64,000 nt of DNA, from contig JAACJK010000226.1 of NCBI GenBank assembly GCA_013368325.1, forward strand, positions 451,301 through 515,300, read 5' to 3'. The stretch comes from Ephemerocybe angulata (taxonomy: Eukaryota; Basidiomycota; Agaricomycetes; Agaricales; Psathyrellaceae). Position 1 is the stretch's first letter. Each line of letters starts with the position of its first letter. Below, piece after piece: positions 2,936 through 44,150 of this stretch. Made by a program: the position numbers and the translations under genes. The notes beneath the pieces are model-generated. The model ran no database searches. It was not told the DNA's origin and saw only the letters and a program-made list of their open reading frames with translations.

Positions 2936-3194
2936 TTGATGTGTGGTTATACCTGGCATTGTGGTGAATGTTTTATTGGGGTTAAGGAAATATGTGTATG
3001 AGTACTTATATAGGTCCTTGTTGTATCATTATCGTGTACCTTTAGGAAGAATTGGAAATGCTGTCCGTCTCCAAAATCAACGCCGAGGAGCGTTGAAGAA
3101 GGTTTTGGATACCAGACCATCGGGGGTCAACTGACAACGGTCTGCAAGCGTACATAGGCGCCAAACAAGCGCCAATTCCACAAAGGCTATCTTA

Positions 3195-5246
3195 TTACGA
3201 GTTACCATCATGGGTACGAGAATTGAAGGGGTCAAAATGCTCAGAGCTGAGGGTGTTGTGAGGGAAGCTAATGGTCGGTGGCCAGTAACGGGGCATGATT
3301 TCCTCGATGGGTAGAATCCGAAGCAATCGACTGCGCCTCGGCGCACCTGGTGGACGAACGGGTTCGGAGGCCGCCTCCAGGTCAGATTCAGACTCCTCTC
3401 CGTCCTCATTAATCCTCGTTTCTCCTTTGACTCCATCGTTTTCGGTCCAGATGCCCCAAACGAAGTTATCCCCACCGATATACTGCTGGGCCAAAAGAGC
3501 TGGATTTGAAAGGCGAACTTCCCATGCATCCACCCAAATCGGAGGGATCCGAAGCAGGTCAATGTGTTTCCACATCGACGAGACACGGTCACAGAGTCTC
3601 ATATACTCTTCCAGGCCATCCCGCATACCATCCGAGGCGGTCGGGAAGTTGAGGGCAACTTCACTGGCATGTGGCCAGAGCGCTGCCAAAGGAATATGTG
3701 GTCCGCCTTCGTGCTGGAATAGAGCCAGGAGTGTGTCGAGTCCTTGGTTCTCGCATGAAAAGACGAGTTCGGTCACGGTACACGTCATTAAGGCGAGGCG
3801 GAGCAAGGCGGCGGGTGTCTTCTGACTGGCGTCGGCCAAAGGTGTTGTAATGTCGCAAAGGACGAGCTTTCGCAATGAAGGAAATGCACTCGCAATGCTC
3901 ACGCTATCCTCCGAATAACGTCCCCGAAATGTGGTGCCGCTCGCCCACTCGAACTCTGGCCAGGGATCCCTATCGAGGGCATAATTAGATATGATCAGGG
4001 TTTCGAGCTGCGTGGCGGTGACGTATCGCAGAAGGTACCAGAGGAAGTGACCTTTACTCCCGCTCCGATTGTGCAGCCCTTCGTCGACCGACCCTCCGAT
4101 GCGCAGGTGCTTTAGTGCCGGGAAACCAAGGAAACGATTTCCCTGGACAGGATCGGAGGTAGTGTGACAGTCAGGAAAGCTAGTCCGAAGGAGTACATCT
4201 TCGCAAAGGGATAAAGTTTCGAGATGTGGGGAGCGCAGAATGTCACTGCCTATCAAGGCAAGCCAATTGATGGTGAACATTCTTTGGGAGGTCGAGCGCG
4301 TTTTGTCGCGAGGCCCATGTTCCAATGCTAGATGTGCGAGAGATTGAATCGGTGGTCGGCAAAATGCCAGTCCAGCAGCGTCCAATTTGAGGTAGTGAAG
4401 CGATGGGCATGGCCCTCGCTCATCTTGGCCTTGCAACAAGAGCACCTGGCTCTCCCATCCGGACTCGCTACTCATAGGTGCTGGGGCGGAGGCGTCGGGC
4501 ACAGGCCCTGCGCAGATGACCATGCGCTCCAGCCTTGGAGTGCAGATACAGGAGATCTGATGCCGGAAAGCGTTCAGTGGCACCCTCATGGATGTGTCAT
4601 TGGCTACGATTGTGAGGCTTTTCCACCTTTCCGAGTGCGGCACTATGAGGCTCAAAAACCGTAAAGAAAACTCTTTGAAAAGAGTTCTCGAGACTTGTGA
4701 TTCGGGGGCGGGTTTATCCCAAGTGAAATCGAAATAAAACTCGAGGGCCCGGTCGCATCCAGAGCGCTGGAGGTAGGTTTGAAGGCGCTGTGCCTCGGAG
4801 GCTACGGATTCGCATGACGACAGCTTGTCACACCAGAAGACACACCACAGAGCAGGTGTTTCAAGAGCAATATTTCTCCAAGTACCGCATACTTGTGAGA
4901 CTGATATCTCGAGTCTTGTTCTTGGGGCCGTGAACCGGGAAAGGTCCTGAGAAGTCGAGCCCAAACCCGTTGACTTGGTATTCCTCCAGTTGCCATCCAT
5001 CATAGATGACTCGGATAGGTGGGATATAGAGAAAATAGTCGAAAGTATGTTCTTCGGGAGGCGAGCTATCGCAGGGGCATTGTTGTTGTGAAGTTGGCCA
5101 TGATGTACTTTCGCAGTTGCAAGGCTTTGCGAGACTTTCGCCAGTTTGGCGAGTAGGTCAGATTGCTCTTGCTCCAAAGTCTTTAGTTTCCGACTGTGCT
5201 TGTCATGCAGACGCTTTTCTTCCGCCGTTAACTCGAGTGGCGCCAT
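3195..5246 (-). CDS. F-box protein with N-terminal coiled coil, 683 aa
   Basis: Single uninterrupted frame. Residues 1-55 are charged and helical (a short coiled coil). They are followed by an F-box-like stretch, ARLPKNILSTIFSIS, and the typical second half SQVCGTWRNIALETPALWCV about 50 residues later. The rest is leucine-rich in the loose style of agaricomycete F-box/LRR proteins, with repeated patterns such as FPALKHLRIGG and FPSLRKLVLCD, and an acidic patch near residue 620. Such proteins act as substrate adaptors for SCF (Skp1-cullin) ubiquitin ligases; the target here is unknown. Several long ORFs on the opposite strand are shadows of this frame. Confidence 0.8.
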   Translation of the reverse strand: MAPLELTAEEKRLHDKHSRKLKTLEQEQSDLLAKLAKVSQSLATAKVHHGQLHNNNAPAIARLPKNILSTIFSISHLSESSMMDGNWRNTKSTGLGSTSQDLSRFTAPRTRLEISVSQVCGTWRNIALETPALWCVFWCDKLSSCESVASEAQRLQTYLQRSGCDRALEFYFDFTWDKPAPESQVSRTLFKEFSLRFLSLIVPHSERWKSLTIVANDTSMRVPLNAFRHQISCICTPRLERMVICAGPVPDASAPAPMSSESGWESQVLLLQGQDERGPCPSLHYLKLDAAGLAFCRPPIQSLAHLALEHGPRDKTRSTSQRMFTINWLALIGSDILRSPHLETLSLCEDVLLRTSFPDCHTTSDPVQGNRFLGFPALKHLRIGGSVDEGLHNRSGSKGHFLWYLLRYVTATQLETLIISNYALDRDPWPEFEWASGTTFRGRYSEDSVSIASAFPSLRKLVLCDITTPLADASQKTPAALLRLALMTCTVTELVFSCENQGLDTLLALFQHEGGPHIPLAALWPHASEVALNFPTASDGMRDGLEEYMRLCDRVSSMWKHIDLLRIPPIWVDAWEVRLSNPALLAQQYIGGDNFVWGIWTENDGVKGETRINEDGEESESDLEAASEPVRPPGAPRRSRLLRILPIEEIMPRYWPPTISFPHNTLSSEHFDPFNSRTHDGNS

Positions 5247-5425
5247 GAGCTATCTTGGAGGATGAGAGGAGGAGGGTGGACCCAAGGGGCGCTAGCTAAG
5301 AACAGATTTGAGCCCATCTGACTTTAAATAAATTGAAACGGAGCTGCAGCAACGTGGCCCGCTGCCCCTCGCCCACCAGTTGCTAGCGGGCCGACACTTA
5401 GGTGCGGCAGTACGAGGGTTTACGT

Positions 5426-6403
5426 CTACATACCATTAGGATTCAGCAAAGTCATATTTTCATAAACTACGTAGAGTAGTGTTCTTCCCTTGCATGTCTT
5501 GAGCCAAACACCGTCATCTGTAGCCATTAGTGTACGTTCAAATATGCACTCTTGTCCATTTTGAAGCCCATCTGCATAGAAGACTTGGCCATGATTATCA
5601 ATTATTCTAGATGTGAAGTGCTCTCCTCCACCATAGATGAGTCCTTTCAGGTGATAAGTGTTATGCCCATTTGCACTGAGCAGGTTCAGCAATGATACAA
5701 TTTTCATATGAGGGTCATCAATGCCAAAGCATATGATATCGGTATGCCTCTGTAAAGTAAGCTGCCTTTCATAATGTGCCTTACAAGGTATGCATTTCTG
5801 GCGGATACTACCCCTCACAGTAAACAAGGCATCTTCGATATTGTATGATTCTCCTATTCTGCTTTTTCGGTATTGATTAGCATTTAGAACTGTGAATGCG
5901 GACAGAGAAAATTTGTTAGACAGTTGTACACTTTGTCTTTTACATGAGGGGCATTCAACGATGGTGTTGCCGAGCTCAATATTAGGAATGACTTTAGGAA
6001 CTAGATCTGATATGAATATTCCTGCTGTTCCGTAAGGAAAACGGTCAGGATATCTCCCTCTTAGCTTGAGTCTTAATTCATTGCGGACATTCTCAATAGA
6101 AGTTTGCTGACTGTGGACCTTGGAGAAGCCCGCTGCTATCTGAGCAAGATATCCTCCATGCTCCTGCCATTTAGAACCCCAAAAGATCTGGTTATTTCTC
6201 CAGATATTAAAAAGGATCACAAGAAGACTGTCGTATCCACAACTGTAGTCAACATTGTCCCAAACGATCCCTTGGGGCTGTTGTCCTTCACTTGGGTTAC
6301 CATGAATGGGTAAGTGGTCTATCGACAATATGCAGAGGTTTGCTAAGTATATTGAAGGAACATAAATCAAATGCGCCGATCGCGCCGCTACCTCCGACAG
6401 CAT
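5426..6403 (-). CDS. USP-like cysteine peptidase (ubiquitin hydrolase fold), possibly TE-linked
   Basis: 325-aa frame. The segment WDNVDYSCGYDSLLVILFNI looks like the Cys box of ubiquitin-specific peptidases, and GGGEHFTSRII with following GQVFYADGL looks like the His box. The order Cys before His fits the USP type and not Ulp1/SENP. Between them are two CxxC pairs (CPSCKRQ and QKCIPCKAHY), as in the zinc fingers of USP enzymes. The first 45 residues look unlike coding sequence, so the true start or an upstream exon is uncertain. The region is clearly more AT-rich than the genes on both sides. The frame starts head to head with the + strand gene at 6371 and overlaps it by about 33 bases. Function is inferred from motifs only. 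Confidence 0.55.
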   Translation of the reverse strand: MLSEVAARSAHLIYVPSIYLANLCILSIDHLPIHGNPSEGQQPQGIVWDNVDYSCGYDSLLVILFNIWRNNQIFWGSKWQEHGGYLAQIAAGFSKVHSQQTSIENVRNELRLKLRGRYPDRFPYGTAGIFISDLVPKVIPNIELGNTIVECPSCKRQSVQLSNKFSLSAFTVLNANQYRKSRIGESYNIEDALFTVRGSIRQKCIPCKAHYERQLTLQRHTDIICFGIDDPHMKIVSLLNLLSANGHNTYHLKGLIYGGGEHFTSRIIDNHGQVFYADGLQNGQECIFERTLMATDDGVWLKTCKGRTLLYVVYENMTLLNPNGM

Positions 6404-6837
6404 GTACGCCTAGCAGGTGGTGAATCCACGGCATTTGCGGAGGCAGCAGCTGCAATTCAAAAAGCCTGTGTTCTCTTTGGCGGTCACTTCCCAGACGGTG
6501 GGATGGTCGCTTGGGAAGGATCTACTAGAGAAAATCTTCCAACCATTGAGGCATCGGCCAGGTACTTCACGCCAAAGTCAGCCAGCAATGAAGAGACCGC
6601 ATTGGAGATCGACGACTTGATTGATCCCAGCCATACTCTCCGCCGCATGATGGAAGACGAGTTCATTCATGGCCCAGACAACAAGGTTGACTACAAAAAG
6701 GAGATATCTATTCATGGTGTTCCAAGGTACGTAGTATTACTTCAATATAGTATAAGGTTGTCATAAATATTGGGCCTAGGCACCAGGATCTATCACCTGT
6801 TTCGTTCACACACAAGTCTACCATCCAGCCTGAATAG
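6371..6837 (+). CDS. Small hypothetical protein, two exons
   Basis: Exon 1 runs to about 6726 and exon 2 from 6780 to the TAG at 6835-6837, joined across a clean GTACGT...TAG intron. The product is acidic in its second half and ends HKSTIQPE. No domain is recognised. It lies between the USP-like gene, with which it is divergent, and the family gene on the minus strand. It may be the 3' part of a larger gene, because the N-terminus is rich in Arg and starts at a weak ATG. Confidence 0.4.
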
Positions 6838-6917
6838 CCAATGCGCCAACCTCCACAGGCTCATCGTAATGGCGCTCAAGCCATTCTGCACTGTCACGGC
6901 TAAGGCCATCATGTGCA

Positions 6918-8097
6918 TCAACTGTACGGCAGTTCAGCAGGTGCCAGCAGAATTGATAAGAGAAACTCACCAATCTCCTCATCGTCACACTTGTATCTGG
7001 CAAACTGGTAAACCGACCAGGTTCCAAAGTTCAATGTTGATTTCCCTCTACGGAAGCACGAGTTGCCACATCGCAGCCTCCATGACACGTATAGCTCACA
7101 ACCGTCCCCAAACCGGCTGGAATCCTTGAATGGGTGGTTGAGCCGTTCACTGTTGAACACAAAAGTGGCCTGGCCAACCCCTCGAGCTTCACGGATTTGG
7201 GCAGGACAGTTAATATCCTGACCACATCGATGTTCCTTGAACGCGTCCCAATCCAATAAACTCCTTTTGATCGTGAATCCAGACCTCGTCAATAGGCGCT
7301 CAGGATGTGAAACAGGGTCTTCGGATGGCATAACCGCTGCATTTCGTATACCCTGGCGCATAAGGGTAAGACCAGGGTACAGAACACATAGCCTTCCATT
7401 GGAAATGTAATTCATGAGTGCGGTTGTAGGCTGATCAACCACCGACAGGAGGGGTGATCCTTTGAGTTTTCCAACAAAGAGGATACACCGGTGCACAGGA
7501 TATAGAGATCCAGAAGAGGAACCCTTTGTGAATAGATAGGCCTGAGAGAGTGTACGGCCAAAAAGAGGGTAGTGCAAGTCATCATACAGACTGTACAACG
7601 TTTTGCGGTCTTCAGGACTTGTGGCGTGCGGCATGAAATGGGGAGTGGATGTGACGTCTTCGAGGCAGAAATGTTCGTCCTCCGTGATGTATTTGAAGAA
7701 AGAAGTAATGTCGGCACTGCTGTTTGGGGCATGGATTTCCAGGCGGTACGTGAACTGAGCCCAATCTTTGGGATGAGTATTGGGAAGGTCGGTGAACAGC
7801 AAGGGAAGGATTCCATGTCCTGAGATAACCATGTTGCAGGTGTCGAGGAGGGTGAGAAATGTGTCCGGCTTTGCTATGCCAGAAGAGATGCGGAGGTGGT
7901 CGAGAAGACGCCTTCTGAGGGTAGCTTCAGCAGCAGAACGCAAAGGTCTGCACATTGTTGCAAAGGCAAGCAGGGTACCAGGAGAGTTGGCACCGCTGTC
8001 GACGATGTCGGTAAGCAGTTCAAGAGGAGTGTCTTGTAGAGCATGGAAAGAAGGAAACAGGGTTTGATCGAGGCTACCAAAAGTCCAGTATACTTGT
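6918..8097 (-). CDS. Uncharacterised agaricomycete family, member 1 (F-box-like N-terminus)
   Basis: The frame that holds the 345-aa ORF stays open upstream of its first Met at 7955 up to about 8097. This extension reads as an F-box-like helix pair: PLELLTDIVDSGANSPGTLL followed by FATMCRPLRSAAEATLRRRL. The C-terminal domain shares with the genes at 8171, 9466 and 55674 the blocks PTTALMNYI, CVLYPGLTLMRQGI, HRCGQDINCPAQIR and WRLRCGNSC. The start codon was not settled; a short 5' exon is likely. The conserved His/Cys block could bind metal (inference). No known enzymatic family is recognised. Confidence 0.65.
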
Positions 8098-13390: not shown

Positions 13391-13505
13391 CTTGCGCTGG
13401 AAAGCTTACTGGTTGATTGTAACTTAACCCTTCCAGTCCTCTAATCCATGTACTTACACGGGAGACAAGAAGCCAATCAGCCAATAGGGGAGTTCAAAGT
13501 TGAAC

Positions 13506-13812
13506 CACCTGATCCCTCCGTAACAACCGGCTAATTAGCCCGGAAGATGTGGTCCACCTTCCCGGCTAACTAGCGGGGTTTGTGTCGATTTCCCTATCGT
13601 ACAGATATCTGCCCAATATCGAGGGCAAATAACTTCGTCGTTTCGCGCTTTCGCCCTCCAGAACCCGAAACCCTCCACGGCAGATGCCGAGATCGATTCG
13701 GACGCGGCCACGCGGGCGGGGAAGGCATGCCCAGGCCCTCGGGCGGCCTCGGCGTCGTCATCGCGGGTCCAAGCAACCTCGCTTAGGCGCTCGTCGTCGT
13801 CGTCGTCGTCGG
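13506..13812 (+). repeat. Left terminal inverted repeat of the KDZ element
   Basis: About 307 bp, GC-rich, pairing with 24751-25054 read on the other strand. It ends inward in a TCG trinucleotide run (seven units here, six in the right copy). A roughly 100-codon frame crosses each repeat but is probably fortuitous. Confidence 0.93.
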
Positions 13813-14138
13813 TAGCGACATTTCTCCTACTATACTTCACATATACAATATACATTACATTGTCCTCACTACTACTATCACTAAGGCCTGGGCCCCCACC
13901 CAGCGTGGAAATGCTCTTACGTGACCGGTCGCTGCCATCGGCATCAAAGTGTCAAAGCACCCCAACCAAGAACTTCCAGGAATCTTTTCAGAGCCATCGT
14001 GAATTCGTTGAAGACCTCCAGTCCCATGATATACATTCTATGTGAGTACGTCCATGATCTCATGAGCTTAGAGACGTGTTGCACGCAGCAGCACTTTCCG
14101 ATTATCCATCAGGAGACTGATATGGATTTCATCTCTAT
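13813..14138. other. Spacer between left TIR and first passenger gene
   Basis: No gene seen. A short + strand frame has no recognisable content. Confidence 0.45.
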
Positions 14139-15709
14139 CTATGTAGCAGCTACGATCTCGTCTTCCCTGCCGCCTTCGCTCTCATCAGAAGAAGAAATAA
14201 CAGAAGCACTCTTAGGCCCAGGTGGAATCTGACCGGCGACAGCAGACCTTTTGGCCCGCTTCCGTGGACGTGCAGCACCGGATTCGGGCTCGGTGACATC
14301 AGCAGTGGTCGCTTTTTTGGTACCCTTGTCCTTCCGTGGCTTCCTTTTCTTCTTCGGCGCCTCGCCAACCTTCTCCGAGATAGCGGTGTGCTCATCAGTA
14401 CTCAGATTCACCCAGGTACAAGCACCTGATACAAGGGCGTCGCGCAGCCGTTGTACTTCGGCAATGGTGTTGAGATTGTGCGGCGATGTGAACTTGAGGC
14501 TCGCTGGCCACCCGCGTAGCTGTACCTTGTGGCGAACCATGATGTGGCTTTCATAGTTCTCGTATGCCATCAAGATATTCTTTTGCTTCAATAGGCGGTC
14601 TGGGAGGGGCGTGGTAAGTCTTTCGTACAACTGATTCTGAACAATTGGCTAAACACTCACTGAGGCCTTCAGAAATGAGGCATCGACATTCCAGCTGCAG
14701 GACACGGAGGAGGGAACCTTTTGATTTCGTGTCTATTCAGTCTAAGGTGAGTATGGCAGCCATTTATCCAACTACGATGCCGCTGACCGTCACGCCTTGC
14801 ATCGCACCAGCTCTGGAACTTCCGAATGAACTCGTTGGCCGTCATGTCGAGGTGCTCGATGAAGAAGGCCGAGGTGTTGCCAGCATCGCCAAATGTTGGT
14901 ACCAGAGTGTCATTAACGCTGTCGCGGGCGCTCACGAGAAACAGGGTTGCTCCTGTTCTTTCGTGGAGCTTCGCCATCTAGGTACGCAATGTGCGCCTCA
15001 TTAGCTACTCAATCTCGTAGTGCCTTACTGTCACTTACCTCTTCATGCAGTCGTCCAATAGTTGTATCGTAATCAACGGCAGCAGCACGATGGTTTGCCC
15101 TCAGACCCTTCGCGTTGAGTTCCCGTTGTTTGAGAAGGTCCTCAAGAAGCTTCTTCTCCTCGGACGGTGACAGGTCGCACATGTCGGGGTCCTCCTTCAT
15201 ACGACGCTGGATCTCGAGGAGCTTCGACTTGTCTCCAATCTCAGTCTCTGGGTTATCCAGTCATCCACCTGTAAGTCATGATAATACGTAGACCTGACAT
15301 GCGACTCACCCTCGTTGATCTCCTTAGCCATGAAGTGCAGTTTAGCATTGTGGAGATTCGGCGCACGGGTTTGTTTAAAACCAGTCTCTGTAGTCGCCCT
15401 CCCCTGCACGTACTCAAGCTTCCTGCCGTGCTTTTCGGCGATCTCCTGGAGGGCGCGGGCCTGGTCTTCCTTAAACTTGCGTATGTCTGCTGCAAGTTGT
15501 GCTTTGTTCTCCTGGGTCTGCTGTGTTCGGGCACGGGCAGTAATTTTCCCTGCGTCGGTGAGCTTGACTGTATTGTTTTTCTTCGGCGGAATCACAGGCT
15601 TTGTAGGATTTCTTTCTGCCCAGGTCGAAACTTCGTCATGGTCCCGGAGCTCGAGTTCGGTTGGTATAAAGCCGTCGTTGGTGTCATCGGTTGAGCCTGA
15701 CATCGGCAA
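14139..15709 (-). CDS. Passenger gene of the KDZ element: repeated agaricomycete family
   Basis: Exon 1 starts at 15709 (or the Met two codons later) and ends near 15311. Exon 2 reads GDKSKLLEIQRRMKEDPDMC and continues through LEDLLKQRELNAKGLRANHR to about 15041. Exon 3 (about 14979-14785) has MAKLHERTGATLFLVSARD and FFIEHLDMTANEFIRKFQSW. The last exon (from about 14635) has YERLTTPLPDRLLKQKNILM, then a lysine-rich nuclear-type tail (KKKRKPRKDKGTKKA). I recognise the pattern as a family present in many copies in basidiomycete genomes, without known function. The intron between exons 3 and 4 could not be placed exactly, so a defect there is possible. It is divergent from the gene at 15909. Confidence 0.6.
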
Positions 15710-15908
15710 GAAATTTTGTGAGGGTACGGCGAATGGGAGAGACAGACGAGGAGAGACGAAGGTATGTTTTGTGGATTTCCGAGCCTATCCAACGGCGTAA
15801 AAATTTGTGGCTGATATTTGTTTGGTCTCAAGCGTGACGGGCTACACACCTGCCGGGTACTTCCATCGGCGCCTTCCTCCAACATCCTCACCTACGATAA
15901 CACCACCC

Positions 15909-16824
15909 ATGCTGCCAACGCCCTGTAAGAAGATTGAGCGCACTTCTACGCCGGCCCCAGGAAGTTTGTGGATGGAAGAGCAATGGGCGAAGGTGCTCGA
16001 AGACTATGAGCTCAGCGAGTCAGACGAGAAGCCCGATCCCAAGTTTGAGGCTTATCTCGAATGGATCGGAAACCAGCCCGCTCCGAAACCGCTCCCGTAC
16101 GTCGAGATTGACGACATCCCTGGGCATAAATGCTACAAGCCTCTCAAACGAAGTGCGGCGTGCACCCGGGTGCGCAGGGTGACGGGCAGAGGAATGGAGA
16201 AGGCATCTTCAGCTTGGGCAACCAGTACGTATCACGGTTTTATTATTGCTATTATCATACTAACACACTTGATAGGCTCAGACGACTCAGACGGGTGGGA
16301 CGAGGCCGTCCGTGTAAGACAGTTGCCGAAAGATCGAAACCGCCGTAAGTCTCTATCAGAATGGATTACAATTTGTTGCTCATAATTGGGGCCAGTAAAA
16401 AAGCAGAAGCGCAACGCCGCCGGAGCCTCAGGCAACAAGAAAGAGCTTCAAGCGCCTAAAGCCGTTGAGCCTAGTGATCACCACGGGTTGACCCCGGGTC
16501 ACGGCGCAGCAACCCGCACCCGCACCGGGGCTAACCCTACCCGCAAACCCGCGGTTTTACCCGTCAAAACGAGCCCTAGAACGGGCAAATCGGATGGGAT
16601 TTGGCCGAGATATGATTTATTTATGTCATAAGACATAAATGAGCCGTATCTCGGCCAGTTTCCGTCCGATTTGGACGTTTGAGGGCTCGTTTTGTAGGGG
16701 ACGGGTAGGGAAACGCCCACCCGCACCCGCACCCAACGGGGTACAACCCGCGAACCCGTACGGGTCGCGCGACCCGTGGTGATCACTAGTTGAGCCGGTC
16801 AAGAATGAGAGGGTTGAGGCGTAG
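15909..16824 (+). pseudogene. Passenger gene interrupted near its 3' end by a hAT-like MITE
   Basis: Starts MLPTPCKKIERTSTPAPG; acidic and proline-rich, with PYVEIDDIPGHKCYKPLKR. Later exons give SDDSDGWDEAVRVRQLPKD and a lysine-rich end. The 317-bp MITE at 16472-16788 sits in the last exon. If one copy of the 8-bp duplication and the element are removed, the frame runs on for a few codons to a TAG at 16822-16824. With the element present the protein gains about 50 foreign residues and stops near 16631. Because only the tail is changed, the product may still work. No domain recognised. Confidence 0.5.
16472..16788. mobile_element. hAT-like MITE, 317 bp
   Basis: Ends read TAGTGATCACCACGGGT inward on both sides (17-bp perfect terminal repeats). 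The flanking 8-bp duplication is GTTGAGCC at 16464-16471 and 16789-16796. The interior is a long imperfect foldback: GGCCGAGATATGATTTATTT pairs with sequence around 16635-16660. Many ACCCGCACCC-type blocks lie just inside the ends. TA/CA-starting repeats plus an 8-bp duplication fit the hAT superfamily. No coding capacity. Confidence 0.88.
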
Positions 16825-17292
16825 AGTAAACACACCAGGAGGTGATGCTTGTACTCGATGAGCAGGGACCAGGGTCTGTTGAATAGGCGCAGTATTTGGC
16901 GACCTTTTGCATTTGTACCGGACCTTCGTGTCTTTGAGTTGAATTGTAGTAGTCAAATGATTATTTGTTTGATATGCCAGTGTTCAGTGCCTCGACATGC
17001 GTAATTATAAGGGTTGAATAAAGGTGACTATATTTCACTCGGCATATGCATGATTCAACAGCTTGAGGACAAAGTACATACAGGTAGATACCTTTGCAGA
17101 ACAGAATAGTGTACCGGTTTAGAGTCTTTAGACTTGTGGCCTCAATGAAGGAAATGCGAGTTCAATCCATGGTAGTTACATTTTTTACAGGTACCACTGA
17201 GCAACCACTGAGCATAAACAAGTGTGGGACTCGAAGTACTCGTGACTGTCGTCAGCCGCCCCCATCATTTTTTTGCTCTTTACTTCAACAGC
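16825..17292. other. Spacer between passenger genes
   Basis: AT-rich, no gene seen. A tRNA box-B-like string at about 17158-17170 followed by a T run has no surrounding tRNA fold. Confidence 0.45.
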
Positions 17293-18843
17293 TATGGTCA
17301 CTCGCAGGGCCACCAGAAATCTCAAACATGCTCAATCTTCAGAAGACGCTGAGCGAATGGAGAGGCGTCGAGAAGTGAGCCGCCGCTCGAGTCAGAAGCA
17401 CTATCACAAGTACGTCAATTTATAAGTAGTACGACCACGCTTCATTGGCCTCATTCCAAATACTTCTCATACAGAGACATTGATGGATCCCGAGCGAGGG
17501 GTGCAGCGCGCCAGAGAGCCGTGCGTGCTCGTAAAAGAGCACTTTTCTCGGGACTTACAGTCACTCCGCAACCATCCTTGGAAGCTCAACAGGAGGCGAG
17601 TAAAAAGTCTAGTAGGAAGCATTATTACAAGTGCGTATTAAGTCCTCATTTGCACCTAATTTAACTCTGACTGATATGTTGAAATCATAGGGATATTGCA
17701 GCATCTCGAGAGAAATGTGCAGCGCGTGCTCGTAAATACAGGGAGGCAAAAAAGCGGTACGTCGCAGACCATCTCATAGGAATATACTTCCACTAACCTG
17801 CTTTCTTGCCCTTAGACGCCAGATGAAAGAGGCTTCACCCATTCCATTTCTATCCAAGGGGGTCCCGGCCTTCAAAAAACTGACCTAGCGTATAAATATT
17901 TTTTTCAGACCTCAACGGGGACCCTACCTACCCTATGTAAGCATCAAAATCGCCAAATCGGGTAATTCCATCAAATTTGTAAGCGAATTACTCACCGGAA
18001 ATTTACCGGCGACTTCCGGATTTGGTAGCCGGTTATACAGCCGCGTGCGCGCACACCATTCTGACCTCTGCATAGGTATAACACTATATAGAACTGTTTA
18101 GAAGTGTATAAAATCAATGTATAGACAAGTTTTATGGTAATAGATGACCGAAACTCGCCCAAAATGGCCGGTATAAGCCCTAAATTTGGGGTTTCTTGGG
18201 GGGTATAAAAAATTTTTCTCCCTGCCGGGAGGGGGGGGTACCTACCTAACGTATGGTCGGCGTTTTGAACCCCGGGACCCCCTTGTTTCTATCTACCCCC
18301 CAGCCCTTGCGCCCAGGCCGTGACCTACTGCAACTTCGCAGGTGAGTCGGACTATTTTCTATCCTTAAGCGCCGAGTCTTGGGCGTCTAACTGCTGCAAT
18401 CTCACTACAGTTGCCGGGATAGTATTCAGGGCCCGCCTATGCTCTCCCCTTTGCCACCTTCATCTCCGATCGCAGCAACACCTCAATATCGTTCCAATTT
18501 CCGCCGATTGGCGAAGTCAAGCTCCGACGAAGACTCAGAAGACTCGGATGGCGGCGAACTGTCGGACACCTCTTCCCTACCTGCACTTCCCCCATCCCCT
18601 CTCTTTCAGGCGCAGAATCGGCTTCCTCGACTACCCATTGGCCCAGGTTTCAAGCAAGAGCGAAAACAGATTTTGGAGCAGTACGCCGAAGAAGACCAAC
18701 TCTTTCTGAGGGCTGTTTGGTCTGAAGCAATGAGCCAGTGTGATCTGTATGGGCGGGCAGGCTACAGGGTATATTGGGAAAGAGCGTACAAAAAGCACGA
18801 GAATGTAATGAAGGAGATGGAAAACCCGTTTGACCTACTATAG
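17293..18843 (+). pseudogene. Basic-repeat passenger gene split by a 431-bp MITE
   Basis: Starts MVTRRATRNLKHAQSSEDAE. Three small exons, joined by clean introns near 17410-17475, 17632-17690 and 17758-17815, encode repeated very basic blocks: SRRSSQKHYHK, then SSRKHYYK, DIAASREKCAARARKYREAK. Each looks like a short DNA-binding helix rich in Arg, Lys and Ser. The MITE at 17855-18285 follows codon SPIPFLS. With it the frame hits a TAG at 17887-17889. Without it the frame continues through another intron into a C-terminal part (FKQERKQILEQYAEEDQLFL and YGRAGYRVYWERAYKKHENV) ending at 18843. A relative lies at 62508. Confidence 0.62.
17855..18285. mobile_element. MITE, 431 bp, with 8-bp target-site duplication
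   Basis: Terminal repeats CAAGGGGGTCCCGG are perfect for 14 bp and about 26/31 matched overall. Direct duplication TTTCTATC at 17847-17854 and 18286-18293. The interior is AT-rich with a T run near the left end and G runs near the right end. No coding capacity. It differs in sequence from the hAT-like MITE 1 kb away; superfamily undetermined (8 bp fits hAT, KDZ or P). Confidence 0.85.
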
Positions 18844-19551
18844 TTTTATATCTGTACGTAGAGTTGATAGTACGGTAGAGCAGCCGGCGGTGTTGCGTCA
18901 CAGCGTGTGCAATTGTATCCCTGGTTTACAGTTCTCTGCATGAGGTAGATGATGTGCATGCTCCAGAGACACTACTGCATGAATGTCTCGTCGTTGCATA
19001 GAAATTTAACCCAACTCTGGTCCGGGACCGTAATGAACTGCAAGTGAACGCAAAGTGAACGGTCAGACATTGTCAGTGACGGTGATCAGTGACGGGAACA
19101 CACACACACATACCTGCATATTCGCAGACCTTAGAGCAAATTCAAATAGCAGGAACTAATGGTATACTTCCCTAGATGCCATGCAGAAATTTTGAATGCT
19201 ATACGTGTTGTAGCGACCACACAACCGGTCATTGGAAAGCACGTCAGAGACACATCAGAGACATCAAATGTCAGTGACGCACCCTTTCACACTACTTTGT
19301 GAGCTATCTACAGCAGCACAAGTCCTCGTATGTTCCGCACTGCATACTATAGCACATATACACTGTATTCAGAGCTTACTGGGTGATATTTGTTATTACG
19401 CGGTCAATGGTTAACTGATATTGAACCATCGAGGTGATTCCGCGTGCGAGCAGTGAAGAGTGGCATTGGGCACTTGGGTACAACATGTCGCAGAAAGTGC
19501 AATGGAAATTTCGAAATATGTACAATCAAGATATAGTAAGTATCGTATGTT
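18844..19551. other. Spacer inside the KDZ element
   Basis: AT-rich, with a short CA repeat near 19098 and scattered GTCAGTGACG-like words near 19069-19090 and 19260-19280. No gene seen. Confidence 0.45.
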
Positions 19552-19865
19552 CTACATGTTAATGCTATCAGCAGATTCAACGAGTTCTCCAGTCTCTACG
19601 AGTTTCAGCTTTGCGCCCCTCACAATATCATCAAATGTGCTCCAAAGTGCTAAAGTCTTCACCCATCTCGTCGACTTCCTTTCTAACATGTCGTTGTATT
19701 GGTCCTCGTTGTACTGCTTAAGCTCGCTCTCTGTTCGATAGCCATTGTCGGCGTATCTAAACAGGGCACCTGAAGTGTACTGCGTAAATGACACGCGAAT
19801 TTCGCCCGGCTGAATTGCAGTGTTGGAATGCGTGAGTACGGCGGATGGTAGGAGTATAGTCGAAC

Positions 19866-21260
19866 TTGTGGTAAGTAGACCACTGCTTCGCATGGCAATT
19901 CCGAGGCTATTTATAATTTGGTGATTTAACAAATTTATTCTGTATATTCAATTAACAGGACTTTGATTGATTCAAACATAATTTGTGCATGTTACAAGAG
20001 TACTTTACAAATGTAATGAGCTAGAAGCAAAAAAAGAAAAAAAAAGAAATGCAGTAAAAAAGAACGGCACTAGTGGGACTTGAACCCTCGATCTCTTGAG
20101 AAAGTGCATGTGACTGCAAAGTCACATGGCCTGGGATTGATGGGATTCTTGGCACTTTTTCTGGCTCGCTGTCCATGTATGTAGTGGATAGCGGGATACT
20201 GAGTTTGAATTTCCAATCAGCACATGACTTGCTATATTCGGTAGATTTTTCTCAGCGTGTTTTGTCGAAATGAACGCGACGCGTCTCAAAACTTGATCTC
20301 TCTTCACTCTTTCTCAGTCGGTTCCTCCCACCAGCTTCGGAGATCTCTTGGAGATCTCAAAACTGGTCCAAAATTAAAATATAAAGTCAGAATAGCTCGT
20401 TTCGTGATTCTAATGCACTTTTGTGCTCGCTCCCAGACCCTTTGACAGGCGCAGGGGTAAACTGCGGCTGCCGCGCGCAGCGCGAGCTCAGGTGAGCGCT
20501 TGAGAACTCCGAGCCGGGACATAGATGGCCATGACTAGCCGCTATCGAGCTCATGCTCCTTCTTCCAGACAGCCGGTGGATAGCTCTGGCAATTTTGTGA
20601 CCTTGGACACGGTCACTGCAGACTTGCAAGCATCTGGCACTCGAGGGCTGGAAGCTCGGGTCACAGAATCAACTTGAGGCTCTCTGTTTGAAGTGGCAGA
20701 AGCTTGGAGGTGGAAGCTTAGAGGATGCTCATGAGGATAGACTCCATACATAGTCTACATGGGTAGAACCATATGCAGGGTAACTATAATCTGTAGAATA
20801 GAAATGCAGCAACGGTAGTCCTACATAATTCATTGATCCTGCGCTCGCATATCCTTTGCATATCCTACCGACGGACCTAACGGAATCAGCGCCGGGTATC
20901 CGTTCGGTATCCAGACGATTTCGGCAATAATCCAACAAATTCCCTCTTACAGACGCAATTCAGGTCGAACCGTGCTGATGTGATGGCATTAGGACCGGGA
21001 TTCCCAACTACTTTAGGGAAAAATCAAGTGAACCCGTCCCAAGATGGAATCTGTGGCTGTTTCTATCCTGTCCAGTGTGTGCCGTCCAGCATTTTCTCGA
21101 AGTCCTAGCACAGTACCCTTCCCTTCCCTCCTCTTTCTCTTTCTCCTTCTCTCCTTCTTTCCTTTTTTGGAAAGTAATTTCCTTTTTGATTTCACCTACA
21201 CACACCAGTATCGAGCCCTTTTTCTGCCGGGTACAAGTACCCGAGCTATAAATAGCCTCG
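19866..21260. mobile_element. 1,395-bp insertion inside the dioxygenase gene
   Basis: Bounded by GAAC at 19862-19865 and 21261-21264; removing the insert and one GAAC restores the expected reading frame. A 17-bp inverted pair, TTCCGAGGCTATTTATA, lies at 19899-19915 and (other strand) 21247-21263, so the right copy is at the very end and the left copy about 33 bp in. The interior has a tRNA-like relic, A-rich stretches near 20030-20060 and a pyrimidine run at 21110-21180. No long coding frame. Class unknown: it could be a SINE/TRIM-like or an eroded inverted-repeat element. Confidence 0.65.
20061..20155 (-). ncRNA. tRNA-like relic
   Basis: On the minus strand GGTTCAAGTCC (20076-20086) is a good Pol III box B, followed by an acceptor-like CACTAGTGCC and a TTTTTT terminator. 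Upstream is a hairpin TCTC-AA-GAGA like a long variable arm, and a perfect stem CATGTGAC/GTCACATG. The anticodon loop has the wrong size and no matching 5' acceptor strand exists, so it is not a working tRNA. Confidence 0.33.
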
Positions 21261-23036
21261 GAACCAGCGGGGAAGTTGATGACAAGGCCGAGCTCTTCGA
21301 TAACAAGCTGCCCACCCAGCTTCGCGTCGAACGTCCCCAGCGCTGTGATAGCACAGAAACCTCCGGGAAGGTTCATGCAGTCGCGATGCTGGGCGGTCAC
21401 CGTCTGCGGACCAAAGTTAAACGCAGCGGCGGAGAAAACACTCTTTGCGAAGTTCCACTTGAGATGTGGCAGGTGGGACTGGCGCTCGACATCCTGGCGA
21501 AGCCCGTGATACCTCTTGTACAGCTTGGGCAATGGGCATGAATAGCCTGAAGGCGGCTAGCGGGGCAAGAGTAAATATCAACGCTTCATACAGGGAGATT
21601 GGAGAATAAACATACCGCTCTGGAAGGTCGCCATCCGAATGATGTCGGGGTCGGCAATTAGCTCCTCGAGCATCGGCTCGTGTACCCCATTCCGTAGGTT
21701 ATAGGGCTGTGTGGGCCCATGCCCCATGAGAACCCCAATGTTCAGAGCGCCGAACTCATCTCCCCGCTTGTGGTGAACCTCGGCGGGCTTCCATGGCGCC
21801 TTGCGGCCAGCCTGATATATCTTCTGGCATGTGTTGTGCATGGAGAGCACATACAGTGGGTCATCCGGTTGACCGACTCCAGCAGCAACGACTTGCCCAG
21901 TCGTGGGGTTGGTGAAAAGCACTGGCGTGCTATAATTCGAGTCGTTGAGTTGAGTACATCAACGCACTGGTAAATAAAAGCAACACTCACATGCCGTCCC
22001 ACTCGTAATGCGTAAACTTCTTCCTGCCGTCCTCGGTCTCTATCGCCAGGACTTCAGCAAATGTGCGAGCGTCCTTCGGGCCACTGGAACCCTTCGGTAA
22101 AGCTTCGTACCCGCTGGAGTTGACGGGAAGGGCGTTGAAGTCTATCAGTGCTGGTAAAGGCTTTGTCGAGGTCGCCGAGATGCTCTTCTTTGCGGCTTGG
22201 GGCTTGGGTTCTTGCCCTTTAGCAACGCATGCGCTTGCGCGAGCTTCCTTCCGGTATGCGCTAAACCGAGACTTATCGCGCTTTCCCCGGACCGCTGCCG
22301 CGCCAGTCGAGACTGCCAGGGGTGCAGAGTGAGACGAACTCGAAGTGGCGTCGTCCTGTGAGTGCGAAGCCGCAGCGTGTCGCTTGGAGGGCGGAATACC
22401 GTCGCCCGACTCAGTGTCCGCTCGGCCGCGCTTGGGAGCACTGGTGGCCGGGCTAGTCATGTTGCTGTGCACGCCAGGGGCTGCCGACGCTGCAGCAGCC
22501 TCGCTTTCTGTCTCGTGCATGCCTTCGTGGTCGACGTCGACGTGATCCTCGGCCTCGAAGGCCGCTTGAAGAAAGGGGGCGACTGAGAAATCGGACGCGG
22601 GGACAGGCGCCGTGTGGAATGTGCGGTAAGTCTTGCCTGAAAGCGTAGCCCGGGCCTTAGTAAAATTGTGAGCTCCTGTCGCGTAGTCATTAGCTGTTCT
22701 ACTCACAACTGTAGATGAGTGGAATTTCATGTTAGAATGAAAGAGATTTGAAAGCGAACACAAACACTCTCAGTGCGCTCTCCAGTCCGTGAACGATGCC
22801 TGGTGTGGCGTCAGAGCCGGGGGAGGGCAGCAGCGAGGTAGGAAAGAAAGAATGAAGGGTGTGTGGACGAAGAATGCCACGTCGAATGTCCTTATATATA
22901 CAATTGGCAATGCCCGAGCCAACGGTTCAACATTTCAAAACGCGACGCGACGCGTTATATGAACGTGGGAACTGGTTGCCGCCCGGCTTGGACAATCAAA
23001 AAAAAGACCAACTACTCACCTCACAACGCCCATCCG

Positions 23037-24647
23037 ATGAAACGAAAGAAGGCGTCCTCTTCGCGCCAACACATCCGGATCCTCACGTCGCACGCGTCCT
23101 CTTCCGGGGTGCATGAACGCCATGAACTCGATCTCAATTCGCACCGCGGGATCCTTCGAAATGTCGCTGATACGCGGCGAGAGGCAGCAGGTGCGGATGC
23201 TGTAGAGATTGAATGAGACGACCCTGACCTTCATTCAGATATTCGCCGCAAGAATCAATTTGCCCACCTTGACGTCCCAAGTACTTCGACTGGGTCCGCG
23301 TACATGGAACTTGATGGAGAGGGAGACGACGGCGACTGGGTTGACGAGCCCTCGGCGGCTTCGGATATTCTCAGTGGCTCTGCTCGGATGGACCTCAGCT
23401 ATGCTGGAGGCGAGTTGGAGGATCTTACGGGCACTGGTACAAGTAAACGGTGAGTTTCTACTATCAGCGCTTGTGGCGCGCCTGATCTCGTTCAAATGGA
23501 AGTTAACATGGGCTTGTAATTAGGCGGCGCCAAGCTGAACACCGAACCTCGAGGCGCGATCAGATGCACCTTCGTAACGACGGGTTTGAGAAGCAGATGG
23601 ATTCAATGGTTCGGGCCTTCATGAAGTGGGACGAGGTAGTTGGGAGTCGGGGATACAAGGCTGGAGTACCGCAGCACGCGTTCACTGAGAATGACGTGCA
23701 AGGTAGCTATGATCTACAGGTTATTGACTGGCAGCTGCTGACCTTGTCAGTAAACGCCGGTATCAGCTGTGCCTCGACCGATTGGAAAGTCTCATCGTCG
23801 CACGCGTTTTCGAGCTCGGGAAAATGAACATGGCGAAGACAGGTAGGTGTTGACGACAATTTTCCGTTTACAGAGGTCTAACACAATTGACAGGATATAA
23901 ACTGAGGACCCATATCTCAAAATCACTACAAAGTCGATCTCAGGCTATTCGCACAGCCCTAGAACGATATAACGCAGCTGCCAACGCCATGAAACCCCGC
24001 CGACAGAATCTTTCGTGGGATCAAGTGGTCGAATATGCATTTCTTGCAGATTTTGACTTACTTCGAGACTCCCGCCAGGATGTGCGAACACGTCCCTGGG
24101 CCCAGCCGGGACCTCGAAGTATCATGCACCTTGCATGCACCAGCACTTCAAGATTGTGCGCGCCCGTGAAGAAATTCAACGCCTTCATATCGAAATACGT
24201 CGCCTCATCACGTATATACAAGATGAGCGAGCATTCCTGCAACACGCCGAGGCCTCCGTCCCTGTACCACCCACACCCTACTCATCTACCCCTTCACACT
24301 CCACGCCATCCGACGCTGATCCCGCTGAGGCTTCCAGATCCACTCCCATCCCAATCACTCACCACATCCGACAATATGCTAGACAGCGTACACTTTTCTT
24401 CGACCTCCACCTCGGGCGACTAGAAAGGCTGAAGTTGAAGGTGCCCAGTGTCGCGCCATCTCTCGTTCCAGGTGTACCAATCGACAAGGCTTTGAGAAAA
24501 CCTCTGAGAGGGAAGGATTTGGCCACTACTTCGACATCAAGCAGCGAGGCGAATGCGCTCGCCGACGATGATTCCGACGAGAGTAGCGGAGACGAGCACG
24601 AAGACAGGGAGGCAGACCTTGATGCTGTATTGGCCAACGGCGACTAA
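23037..24647 (+). pseudogene. KDZ transposase with catalytic core deleted
   Basis: N-terminal part: starts MKRKKASSSRQHIRILTS, an intron near 23192-23239, then DDWVDEPSAASDILSG-like acidic sequence, an intron near 23451-23524, then FEKQMDSMVRAFMKWDEVVG and NDVQGSYDLQVI. C-terminal part: YQLCLDRLESLIVARVFELG, KMNMAKTGYKLRTHISKSLQ, VVEYAFLADFDLLRDSRQDV, RPWAQP and REEIQRLHIEIRRLITYIQD. I know both ends from basidiomycete KDZ transposases, where several hundred residues holding the RNase H-type core separate them. Here they meet near 23725-23757 and lie in different frames. The gene therefore cannot make active transposase. The last exon ends in a Ser/Asp-rich tail at 24647. Confidence 0.75.
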
Positions 24648-24750
24648 ATACAGTCTGTAGTACTATGATTTGTGGGTATATACATATATATTACTATCAT
24701 TTATGTGGACTTCACATTTTGCTGGGGAAACAGTGTACTCGACGACGCCG

Positions 24751-25054
24751 CCGACGACGACGACGACGAGCGCCTAAGCGAGGTTGCTTGGACCCGCGAT
24801 GACGACGCCGAGGCCGCCCGAGGGCCTGGGCATGCCTTCCCCGCCCGCGTGGCCGCGTCCGAATCGATCTCGGCATCTGCCGTGGAGGGTTTCGGGTTCT
24901 GGAGGGCGAAAGCGCGAAACGACGAAGTTATTTGCCCTCGATATTGGGCAGATATCCGTACGATAGGGAAATCGACACAAACCCCGCTAGTTAGCCGGGA
25001 AGGTGGACCACATCTTCCGGGCTAATTAGCCGGTTGTTACGGAGGGATCAGGTG
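24751..25054 (-). repeat. Right terminal inverted repeat of the KDZ element
   Basis: Reverse complement of 13506-13812 with one substitution in the body. The TSD AGTTGAAC follows at 25055-25062. Confidence 0.93.
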
Positions 25055-25203
25055 AGTTGAACACGGTTTGAACCTCGCGGTTCGCCCAAACGGGCATCGT
25101 GGGAACATCATTAACAATTGGACATGTGGCGACGCGCCTCGCGTCTTCAATCTCAACCACCACCTTCTCTGAGTTGCTTGGACCTCTCATTTGCCTTCCA
25201 AGA

Positions 25204-27879
25204 ATGCTACTTTACTCTGACACAAATGACTTCCTCGACAATTGCTTCATACCCCCTCCAAACGCTTCTGTTCTAGACGACGTACTGAAGAAGCTGCAAA
25301 ACAAACGGGTACTCATCGCCCGGTCCAAACATTCTGCTCGAACCACATCAGCTCTAGCCCGCGGGCAAACATCAAACTGTCGACAGGATGGTTTGCAAGT
25401 CGAAGACCGACCTTTTCCTCTAGTCTTGAGGGGGTTTGCCCATCGAGCATCGGAGGGCAGGTTGACACGCTCTCTAAGTAGCGTAGACAAACTGTGGGCC
25501 AAGCTGGAGACTCTTGCCACGGATATACGCCAGTGCATGGAGAAAGCGGGACTTCAAGAGAATGGACTTCAGCTGTCCTTTGTCCCTGACGCTGAAAGTG
25601 TCGGTGAAAGTGACATCGACGACAGCGCCTCTGATGACTCATTCGAAGGCGGGGACAAGCGGACTGGAGAGGGGTCTAACTCGGTTTCTTCTCTCGGTTT
25701 CGACGGTTTGACTGTGCCAGTCGCTCTGAGCCTGGACGAAGTGAATACAGTCCAGGTGATTACTTTTGCGGTGCCTTCTATGCCTTTTAGAACTGACAAT
25801 TGCTGTTTAGAACAGAGAACGTATCGTTCAAGCTATGCGCGAAAGTATGGAGGGCGATATATCGCGCAATTTCATCTATGGAGTAAGTTTCTACACAAAG
25901 ATGAACTGAACCACCTCTGAATACCAGTAGATCAGTATTGAGGACGACCGAGTTTCGTTATGGTATTCTACGAGAAATACGACTGTCAAAGCGACCTCGT
26001 TCAGCTACGTCAAGGTTAGCCTCCCAATTGCTCCCAGAGCATACCGCGATACAGCCTGCTGATAGTCGCTGTCTAGAGGCCCGACTTACTTATTCGCGTC
26101 TTCGTCTCGCTCTTTTCTGCGGACCGAGACGCCTTGGGATACGAGTCTCATATCACTCGTCTCGCTGACGGTTCCTATCTCTATGAACTAGACCGAATCG
26201 CGGCGAAGGCTAGCAACCTGAAGTCGAGCCAACGGCTGCAGTCAAAAGCAGGCCCAAAGCAAGAGCCCTCGTTTTTTTTCAAGACGACGAACCTTGTCTC
26301 TGCAGGCAACAGTCGCATTTGGAAGGCCGTGGAGGTCATGTCGAAGAGCAACCTCAAGCCTAAGCCCAAGGCCCGGGAAATTATCTTGAAGGATACTTGG
26401 GTCGACACCGACTCTGCGACTGAATTCGATCTCCAATACCGACTTTTTCAGGACATCGATAATCTCAAGCAATCGGACTGGGAATCTTTGCCGATTTTGA
26501 AGAATATACCCGGCGATCGAGAAGAGTTTGATCGACTACGCGGCTATCTGAAGGACGACTCTTACAAGAGTCTCTTCCTACGATACGATGAGAGGATGTA
26601 TTATGCTGGACAGTCTACGAAGTCGCTTAGTCCAGAGCAGGTCTGGAATCCCGCCAACACTCCTGGTGTTGCCCATACTCTCGCTGGCAACCTTCAACAG
26701 CATTGCAGAACCACAACGCGCCCACATCCTCTGACGGACGGATCTGTCCCGAACTTCTCCCTTACCTCGAGGAGGCGCTGTTTCTTCGTCTTCCCTGATA
26801 CCTGCAAGCGTGTGTCTGACCTTCCGACGCTTGGAGACGCGATGGACGTACTCAATCAGGCTTACTATGGTAAATCTTTTCGGAATAATAACACCCCTCA
26901 TTACATGACTGATCCCTTTTTTTCTAGCGCTTCTGCTCATGTTCTGTGCTGGCTGGGTTCATAGAGACATCAGTGATGGGAACGTTCTCGCTACAGAGGT
27001 AGACGGCAAGTGGATTGCCAAGCTTTCCGACCTCGAGTACGCGAAGAAGGTCCCCTCGAACGTCCAAAGATCCCCTGAGCCGAAGACTGTGAGTTTCTCT
27101 CTTTACCTTGCATCGAAACCTATCTCACTGAGCTCGGTCTGTAGGGCACACCATACTTCATGGCGTACGAAATACAAAGCTCGAAGTTCATTTGCCCTCC
27201 TGCTCCCCTCCCTCCGACACTCACCTTTGTAGTCTGGGGCGAAGTTGAATACGAAGAGCGAAAGGAGCCTCCTGCGTGTGTTGTACACACCTTCTTTCAC
27301 GACATTGAGTCACTATATTGGCTTATCCTATGGATTATCACCAGTCGTGTCGGATGTGACGCCTCCGAGGCCGCGGCCCAGATCGTCTTTACTTCCAGGC
27401 CGACCCCTGCACGATATAACGTCCTGCGCGGCGGCATCCCTGCAAGCGTTGCATCGAGGCTCCACGACAGTGTCAAACCCATCGCCTCCGCTCTCGAAAA
27501 GCTACAGTTCCGACTGTTTCAAGACTATTTTCGAAACACTCCAGATATGAGGCTGGATCCCTTAAACTATTCCCCGATTTGCGCCGTTCCTTTGATCTTT
27601 TTTCACACTATCAAGGCGTTTCGGGAATCTTGGGCTTCGTTACACCTTCAGCGACCTGCACCCCCTATAGAAGCACCTCATATCCTATCCCAATCGTCTA
27701 CTACTCGCGGACCGCCCTCCGTTCGAGTTCTGACCGGCTCGGGCCCACGATTGTCTAAGAGGAAGTCCCTTCATGAAGTTGCTGACACCTCAATGGCACG
27801 TTTACCTCTGGAAGGTAGCGATGAAGGTCAGGCAGGACCATCAAAGAGACAGAAGGTTCGTGTTCCTACGGGAGCATGA
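25204..27879 (+). CDS. FunK1-type protein kinase, spliced
   Basis: FunK1 kinases are a fungal family expanded in mushroom-forming fungi. Visible signature parts: an N-terminal helical region (FLDNCFIPPPNASVLDDVLK), the pre-kinase segment NREKV/NRERI-like after a splice near 25757-25811, then RLGYESHITRLADGSYLYEL, the catalytic loop HRDISDGNV (Asp and Asn present), the metal-binding Asp in LSDLEYAKK, GTPYFMAYE and DIESLYWLILWIITSR. Introns lie near 26871-26928 and 27087-27145. The frame is open upstream to about 25072, only 10 bases past the transposon duplication, but the first ATG in frame is 25204. The C-terminal tail after residue RPAPPIEAP is low-complexity. The transposon thus sits directly upstream and may have replaced the promoter. 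Confidence 0.8.
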
Positions 27880-43724: not shown

Positions 43725-44150
43725 GGTAACTCATTATGTGTTGTCTGATGGCGAAGTGGGACTAAAGCCGTTTCCATTGTCTACCAATTGTACTTGTATA
43801 GCTACACCTGTCACTGTATAGACAGTGGCCTTCCCCAACATCATCCTTTCTGAGGACCCTTCAAGAGAAAAACCAGGAAGTTGAACACGGGAACTGTGAA
43901 CGTTTGAACCCCAGAGGATAACTGACGCATAGACATGCTCGTAGGTCTGTTTACACCCTTACCGAGACTCCGTGACTGGGCTACCTTAGCGGAGCTACAC
44001 TGAGCATAAGCGCGCAGGCGCTGCCCATGTGGTGGCCATTTCGAGCGTTAGCGCCCACGGGAATTGCCGAACTGGAGTTCGCGTGACTGACGCGCGTGAC
44101 GGTTTCATTCAACCTTCTTGACCTTCTACCACCATCATATCCAGCAAGAA
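43725..44150. other. Intergenic region
   Basis: No gene seen. A segment near 44040-44080 resembles sequence near 41065-41100 (GCGCCCAC followed by TGCCGA), another trace of local duplication. Confidence 0.45.

Follow-up and report, generated by a model that had tools for sequence, protein, structure and literature searches.

A probably non-autonomous KDZ-type transposon copy with a divergent TET/JBP-fold dioxygenase gene in Ephemerocybe angulata

Near-identical inverted ends enclosing parts of a KDZ transposase gene and a TET/JBP-fold dioxygenase gene raise the question of whether the locus studied here is a complete transposon able to move DNA-modification genes, as the earlier note on this DNA had proposed, or the remains of one. 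The locus lies in a 64,000-nucleotide stretch of Ephemerocybe angulata (C133:451301-515300, hereafter the window) from a 58.67-Mb assembly of 232 contigs, and the copies of the element are named by contig, C133 being the window copy. The analysis suggests, with a probability of about 85%, that the window copy is a non-autonomous, internally deleted derivative of a cut-and-paste KDZ family that carries a divergent TET/JBP-fold dioxygenase.

The element spans 13506-25054 (11,549 bp) and is flanked on both sides by a perfect 8-bp target duplication, AGTTGAAC (13498-13505 and 25055-25062), which is present three times in the window, the third time at 43879. The outermost letters are CACCTGATCC on the left and GGATCAGGTG on the right, and the inverted ends show one mismatch in the first 300 bp and two in 307 bp. 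Their inverted match scored 558 bits, compared with 25 to 36 bits for the top-scoring inverted repeat of every one of 10 Markov-shuffled versions. The earlier description of terminal repeats of about 305 bp with one mismatch and a perfect 8-bp duplication was thus confirmed, and the word "complete" holds for the ends; it fails for the interior, where a deletion has taken out the KDZ domain and shifted the frame, and where an insertion splits the dioxygenase gene. The features concerned are as follows.

13498..13505: left target-site duplication, AGTTGAAC
13506..13812, + strand: left terminal inverted repeat, 307 bp, starting with CACCTGATCC, 2 mismatches to the right end
19552..22730, - strand: TET/JBP-fold dioxygenase gene, interrupted in the window copy
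19866..21260: 1,395-bp insertion of two nested repeats into the dioxygenase gene, with GAAC on both sides, absent from C47 and C86
23037..24647, + strand: KDZ transposase gene, reduced to its N- and C-terminal parts
23730..23731: junction of the deletion of about 1.84 kb that takes out the KDZ domain, frame shifted
24748..25054, - strand: right terminal inverted repeat, 307 bp
25055..25062: right target-site duplication, AGTTGAAC

About 1.84 kb present in C47 and C86 is missing from the window element at 23730/23731, with the entire KDZ domain inside the missing part and the frame lost, and a second frame change was found in the transposase gene at about 24130. A KDZ-core model built in this analysis found a match at 27 of 28 loci and missed only the window element. 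The earlier wording, by which KDZ transposase "ends" lie inside the repeats, was exact, the N- and C-terminal parts being present and the core absent. Four sister copies (C47, C86, C112, and C120) harbor the KDZ domain (PF18758) over the cut-off, with 246.7 bits for the C112 composite, and two proteins of Ephemerocybe angulata D9611 share 97% and 54% identity with the C112 transposase composite. These four copies look functional for transposase, and the window copy looks like a disabled member of a small family; the proposed ability to move DNA-modification genes would not belong to the window copy by itself, and only the sister copies look able to do so. Over 78 codons of the C-terminal stub of the transposase, C133 and C47 differ in two residues and at 23 bases, of which 20 fall on third positions, and so few residue changes indicate that the transposase was lost late relative to the C133/C47 split.

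In the mechanism proposed here, the KDZ transposase would recognise the ends of about 305 bp and insert the element with an 8-bp staggered cut. The transposase core of the window copy was probably lost via an internal deletion, whose breakpoints fit 1-3 bp of shared sequence, as might be expected after aborted gap repair. The window copy could now move only in trans, with the transposase of its sisters, namely C47 (ends about 96% alike), C86, or C112/C120.

The dioxygenase of the window copy appears to have been lost to the insertion of the nested repeats, which splits the gene between the HxD motif and the distal His/Arg. Parts of the insertion recur in the genome: matches to the outer piece lie on C196 and C126, and one to the inner piece lies on C232, with 95% identity. 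Splicing-out of the insertion was considered by eye on the sequence and rejected, as the only splice seen would shift the frame. Because the single assembly comes without reads or a second haplotype, the deletion or the insertion might be an assembly artefact concealing an intact element at the true locus, which is very unlikely given that both changes are single clean junctions, that the insertion shows a 4-bp duplication and is made of repeats known elsewhere in the genome, and that a second frame change lies within the same transposase gene.

The genome search with the element end that the earlier note had advised was carried out with the left end and returned 20 rows, which resolved into eight paired copies, the window copy included.

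Large paired copies: C133 (11,549 bp), C47 (11,283 bp), C86 (11,213 bp), C112 (10,889 bp), C120 (46,685 bp)
Short paired copies: C207 (2,488 bp), C151 (2,369 bp), C125 (234 bp)

A perfect 8-bp duplication was found in all eight, and all eight duplications are different. The rows outside the paired copies fell on C117 (two) and C18 (one), which are unpaired remnants, and on one internal partial match at C47. Such ends without the interior, which the earlier note had named as evidence against its proposal, do occur in C207, C151, and C125, yet they are no refutation because they are expected for non-autonomous derivatives. C112 (C112:342315-353203) and C120 are 99.8-100% identical through most of the right part, drop to 97% and 77% in single stretches, and reach 94% across the first 4.4 kb, an uneven likeness that points to exchange between copies. 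C120 (C120:1013955-1060639, 46.7 kb) has its own ends and 8-bp duplication intact and contains four direct-repeat pairs of the long terminal repeat (LTR) type, two of which sit within the largest pair. A view of C120 as a giant cargo element was rejected, as most of the extra length consists of these four pairs, three of them with 5-bp duplications by eye. No family-like ends were found around the related loci C125:2081500, C37, C128, and C47:373000. Of two further related loci, L026 has an inverted repeat of 98 bp with 82.7% identity, and L027 has one CACC/GGTG pair bordered on each side by the same 8-mer (1046-7780), without a longer inverted repeat.

Near-identical ends had also been taken to mean recent movement, which was not borne out. 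The left and right ends are 99.7% identical in C133, 98.3% in C47, 100% in C112 and C120, 99.0% in C151, and, in C86, 99.6% over its 285-bp repeat and 95.7% over 300 bases, whereas the ends of different copies are about 96% (C133/C47), 80% (C133/C86), and 73% (C112/C86) alike, the five large copies differing among themselves by up to about 27%. A DNA transposon carries both ends along on moving, and because the two travel together, the two ends of one copy should, without exchange, diverge at least as much as the copies do. The likeness within copies and divergence between copies suggest that the two ends within each copy evolve in concert by exchange, e.g., gap repair or gene conversion. End likeness was therefore rejected as a clock, since ends are alike within copies that are far apart (C207 being the contrary copy), and the result serves as a warning that identical ends of a DNA transposon give no clock, unlike those of an LTR element. 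It is thus extremely unlikely that the perfect duplication, the near-identical ends, and the constraint on the conserved neighbouring genes mark a KDZ transposon that is complete, autonomous, and recently moved and that serves as a small mobile gene island: alike ends recur in far-apart copies, the dioxygenase is split, and with the KDZ core absent and the frame broken, the assembly already refutes autonomy. What stands of the original proposal is a KDZ-type element, of a kind known from basidiomycetes, with a TET/JBP-fold gene, together with its ends and duplication; completeness and autonomy do not stand.

Insertion itself appears to be supported by the site. Searching the genome with the joined flanks revealed no uninterrupted copy of the whole site, all 18 rows being partial, and the junction recurred without interruption on C11 and on C226 (46-47 columns, a single AGTTGAAC), the only two places with the exact pattern. 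These two uninterrupted repeats share about 70 bp around the junction, suggesting that the target was probably a small dispersed repeat.

The class of the dioxygenase was assigned via the predicted structure of a homologue, which has the TET/JBP fold of the double-stranded beta helix and matches CcTet, NgTET1, and TET2, the nearest solved structures being those of TET and CMD1 enzymes, which have DNA bases as substrates. Across the matched fold, the sequence is about 12% identical to CcTet. The Pfam Tet_JBP cut-off (34.9 bits) was not reached, with 6 of 10 homologues matching at 21.2 bits at best and the members on C107 and C150 at 28.2 and 27.7 bits. A Pfam scan of single exons gave no result over the cut-off, and searching the PDB by sequence returned one chance-level row in one search and none in another. 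The reported TET/JBP-type dioxygenase is thus present, and its class follows from the predicted fold of the homologue, with the qualification that the gene is in pieces and has no Pfam match over the cut-off.

In an alignment of 38 of the 45 dioxygenase homologues, the residues for metal and 2-oxoglutarate are largely kept (His 37/38; Asp 37/38, with Asn in one; distal His 37/38; Arg 35/38). CcTet Gly331 and Asp337 have been reported as key residues (PMC12730594); the place of Gly331 is Asn in all 38 homologues, and the candidates for Asp337 (Cys378 in the ungapped and Thr381 in the profile alignment) are never Asp or Glu. The genome also contains 25 ordinary TET/JBP matches over the cut-off, a set separate from the family dioxygenase, and the 14 of them compared have Gly (14/14) and Asp (13/14) at the two places. 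The AG-type hallmark (Gly plus Asp at CcTet 331/337), stated for Kyakuja-borne members (PMC12730594), is therefore absent from the family dioxygenase, as is the PE-type hallmark (HxE for HxD), given the Asp in 37 of 38 and Asn in one. Profile comparison of the alignment with the 14 ordinary TETs gave a probability of 20% and an E-value of 0.0011, a match that is weak by probability.

It is conceivable, although rather unlikely, that the family dioxygenase is not a 5-methylcytosine (5mC) oxidase and acts on another base or substrate, as the low identity to CcTet and the Asn without an acidic counterpart at the key places (PMC12730594) would allow; the retained metal and 2-oxoglutarate residues, the nearest solved structures acting on DNA bases, and the position of the gene with a DNA transposase argue against it. 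On this line, it may tentatively be proposed that mushroom KDZ elements carry a fourth, undescribed TET/JBP type that lacks the CcTet 5mC residue and oxidises or decorates another base or substrate. A PU-type TET/JBP has been reported from Pucciniomycetes (PMC12730594). In the preferred reading, the dioxygenase of the intact copies most likely oxidises a methylated base on the element DNA and would thereby ease silencing.

The dioxygenase family (32 rows, e.g., C128:280796, C36:18757, C150:76315, and C107:110651) outnumbers the transposase relatives, and several members with long open frames have no family-transposase relative beside them, being either truncated elements or host genes. Many of the 25 ordinary TET/JBP matches lie a few kilobases from a KDZ match, as in Kyakuja of other mushrooms.

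Several points weigh against the picture of a disabled derivative from a family with an anti-silencing enzyme. The deletion and the insertion both rest on one assembly. The ends of C207 are only 77.9% alike over 300 bases (89.2% over the 176-column repeat), its right end lying closer to C151 than to the left end of the same copy. The observed/expected ratio of CpG is 0.97-1.02 in C133, C47, C86, and C112, compared with 0.83 and 0.93 in the window sequence to the left and right of the element; a ratio of about 1.0 bears no mutational trace of methylation, and the anti-silencing role is neither supported nor excluded by it. With both intact-looking and broken copies in a single genome, this bounded family offers a test bed for the idea of a transposon-borne anti-silencing enzyme, opening the question of whether copies with a working dioxygenase are less methylated or better at spreading. 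The TET/JBP class also gains a divergent branch, for which no substrate should be taken for granted.

The following other coding regions lie within the element.

14151..15730, - strand: gene 1, orphan protein of about 450 residues, several exons, conserved in C47, C86, and C112, no Pfam match
15882..16469, + strand: gene 2, conserved coding region with weaker evidence, exons not settled
17252..17776, + strand: more conserved short frames with basic repeats, which may be later exons of gene 2
18439..18843, + strand: gene 3, about 134 residues, conserved in C47, C86, and C112

The five-gene cargo described earlier was about right, with four clear conserved coding regions and one weaker. The ratio of nonsynonymous to synonymous substitution rates (dN/dS) was 0.05-0.38 in the conserved coding regions of the element copies where computable, at least 11 pairs being saturated or not computable and the C133 rows of the KDZ C-terminal part (KDZ_Cterm) being left out as past the frame change and redone on the 78 codons. 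The coding regions are under constraint. Among 7,999 scored candidates, gene 1 had no more than two relatives, each from Ephemerocybe angulata DFP72, and its structure predicted from two sequences reached a predicted local distance difference test score (pLDDT) of 43. In strain DFP72, a contig of 103,669 bp harbors dioxygenase P0003, transposase P0048, and gene 1 P0167 together, and further shared contigs are those of 275,024 bp (P0051 and P0166) and 1,596,396 bp (P0001 and P0073); linkage here means presence on the same contig.

Within the element, window 16472-16788 is a repeat that contains an 80% palindrome and is 89% similar to a portion of the C207 interior; it is probably a further small inserted element. 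The right flank (window 25087-26961) is repeated at steps of about 3 kb on C22, C21, and C88, and a frame next to the element shows a resemblance to a fungal protein kinase that, at 18.9 bits, stays under the 24.1-bit cut-off. A Pfam scan of 22 frames outside the element gave four results over or near the cut-off, no tRNA genes were found in the window, and self-comparison revealed dense tandem repeats of 73-92% identity at 53242-55367.

Regarding lineage, the KDZ domain PF18758 was found in C47, C86, C112, and C120 and not in the window copy, and matching ends with an 8-bp duplication were found in all eight paired copies. In a tree of 38 KDZ cores, with L026 and C120 left out, nine transposases beside ordinary TETs formed their own clade (98/92), apart from this family, and these nine are taken to be Kyakuja, without a reference sequence. 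The 8-bp duplication and inverted repeats agree with Zisupton, although not specifically, as Dileera also has 8 bp (PMC12730594). The family is likely, though not proven, to be Zisupton, as judged by its duplication and ends.

TET-bearing KDZ transposons of Agaricomycetes were reportedly described by Iyer et al. in 2014, as relayed by Kojima in 2025. In the latter work (Kojima 2025; PMC12730594), such transposons of Agaricomycetes are treated, and Kyakuja has 7-bp duplications and no inverted repeats, unlike the present family with its 8 bp and inverted ends of about 305 bp, which thus does not fit that description of Kyakuja. Like those TET-bearing elements of mushrooms (PMC12730594), members of this family enclose genes for a KDZ transposase and for a dioxygenase of the TET/JBP fold in transposon ends bordered by a target duplication; the family differs in that its dioxygenase lacks the tested AG and PE hallmarks and in that the window copy is disabled. 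The CcTet enzyme of Coprinopsis cinerea (PDB 7w5p, 7vpn, and 8jkk) differs from the family dioxygenase in the low identity and at the Gly331 and Asp337 places. The nearest described anatomy, as given in the available part of its report, is that of KDZ1 of Cryptococcus neoformans, which is about 11 kb long with 241-bp inverted ends, 8-bp duplications, and a KDZ core, and which inserted into a reporter gene; it differs in its distant host and in that no dioxygenase gene is named in that part (PMC12810828). Likewise from the available parts of the sources, KDZ and Plavaka together account for about half of the DNA elements in Marasmius oreades (PMC8290104), and 4 Kyakuja and 14 Zisupton families are listed for Agaricus bisporus (PMC7473861).

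No paper on this family was found in one open literature library, most subscription journals lying outside that search. Ds-like elements are internally deleted copies of Ac, with intact ends, a lost transposase, and autonomous sisters. The window copy resembles them in its intact ends, internal loss of the transposase, and presumed autonomous sisters in the genome, whereas it belongs to another transposase superfamily and its movement in trans is only presumed. Thus, the kind of element is already in print as TET-bearing KDZ transposons (Kojima 2025), and both the family and its enzyme look like a new form of that kind.
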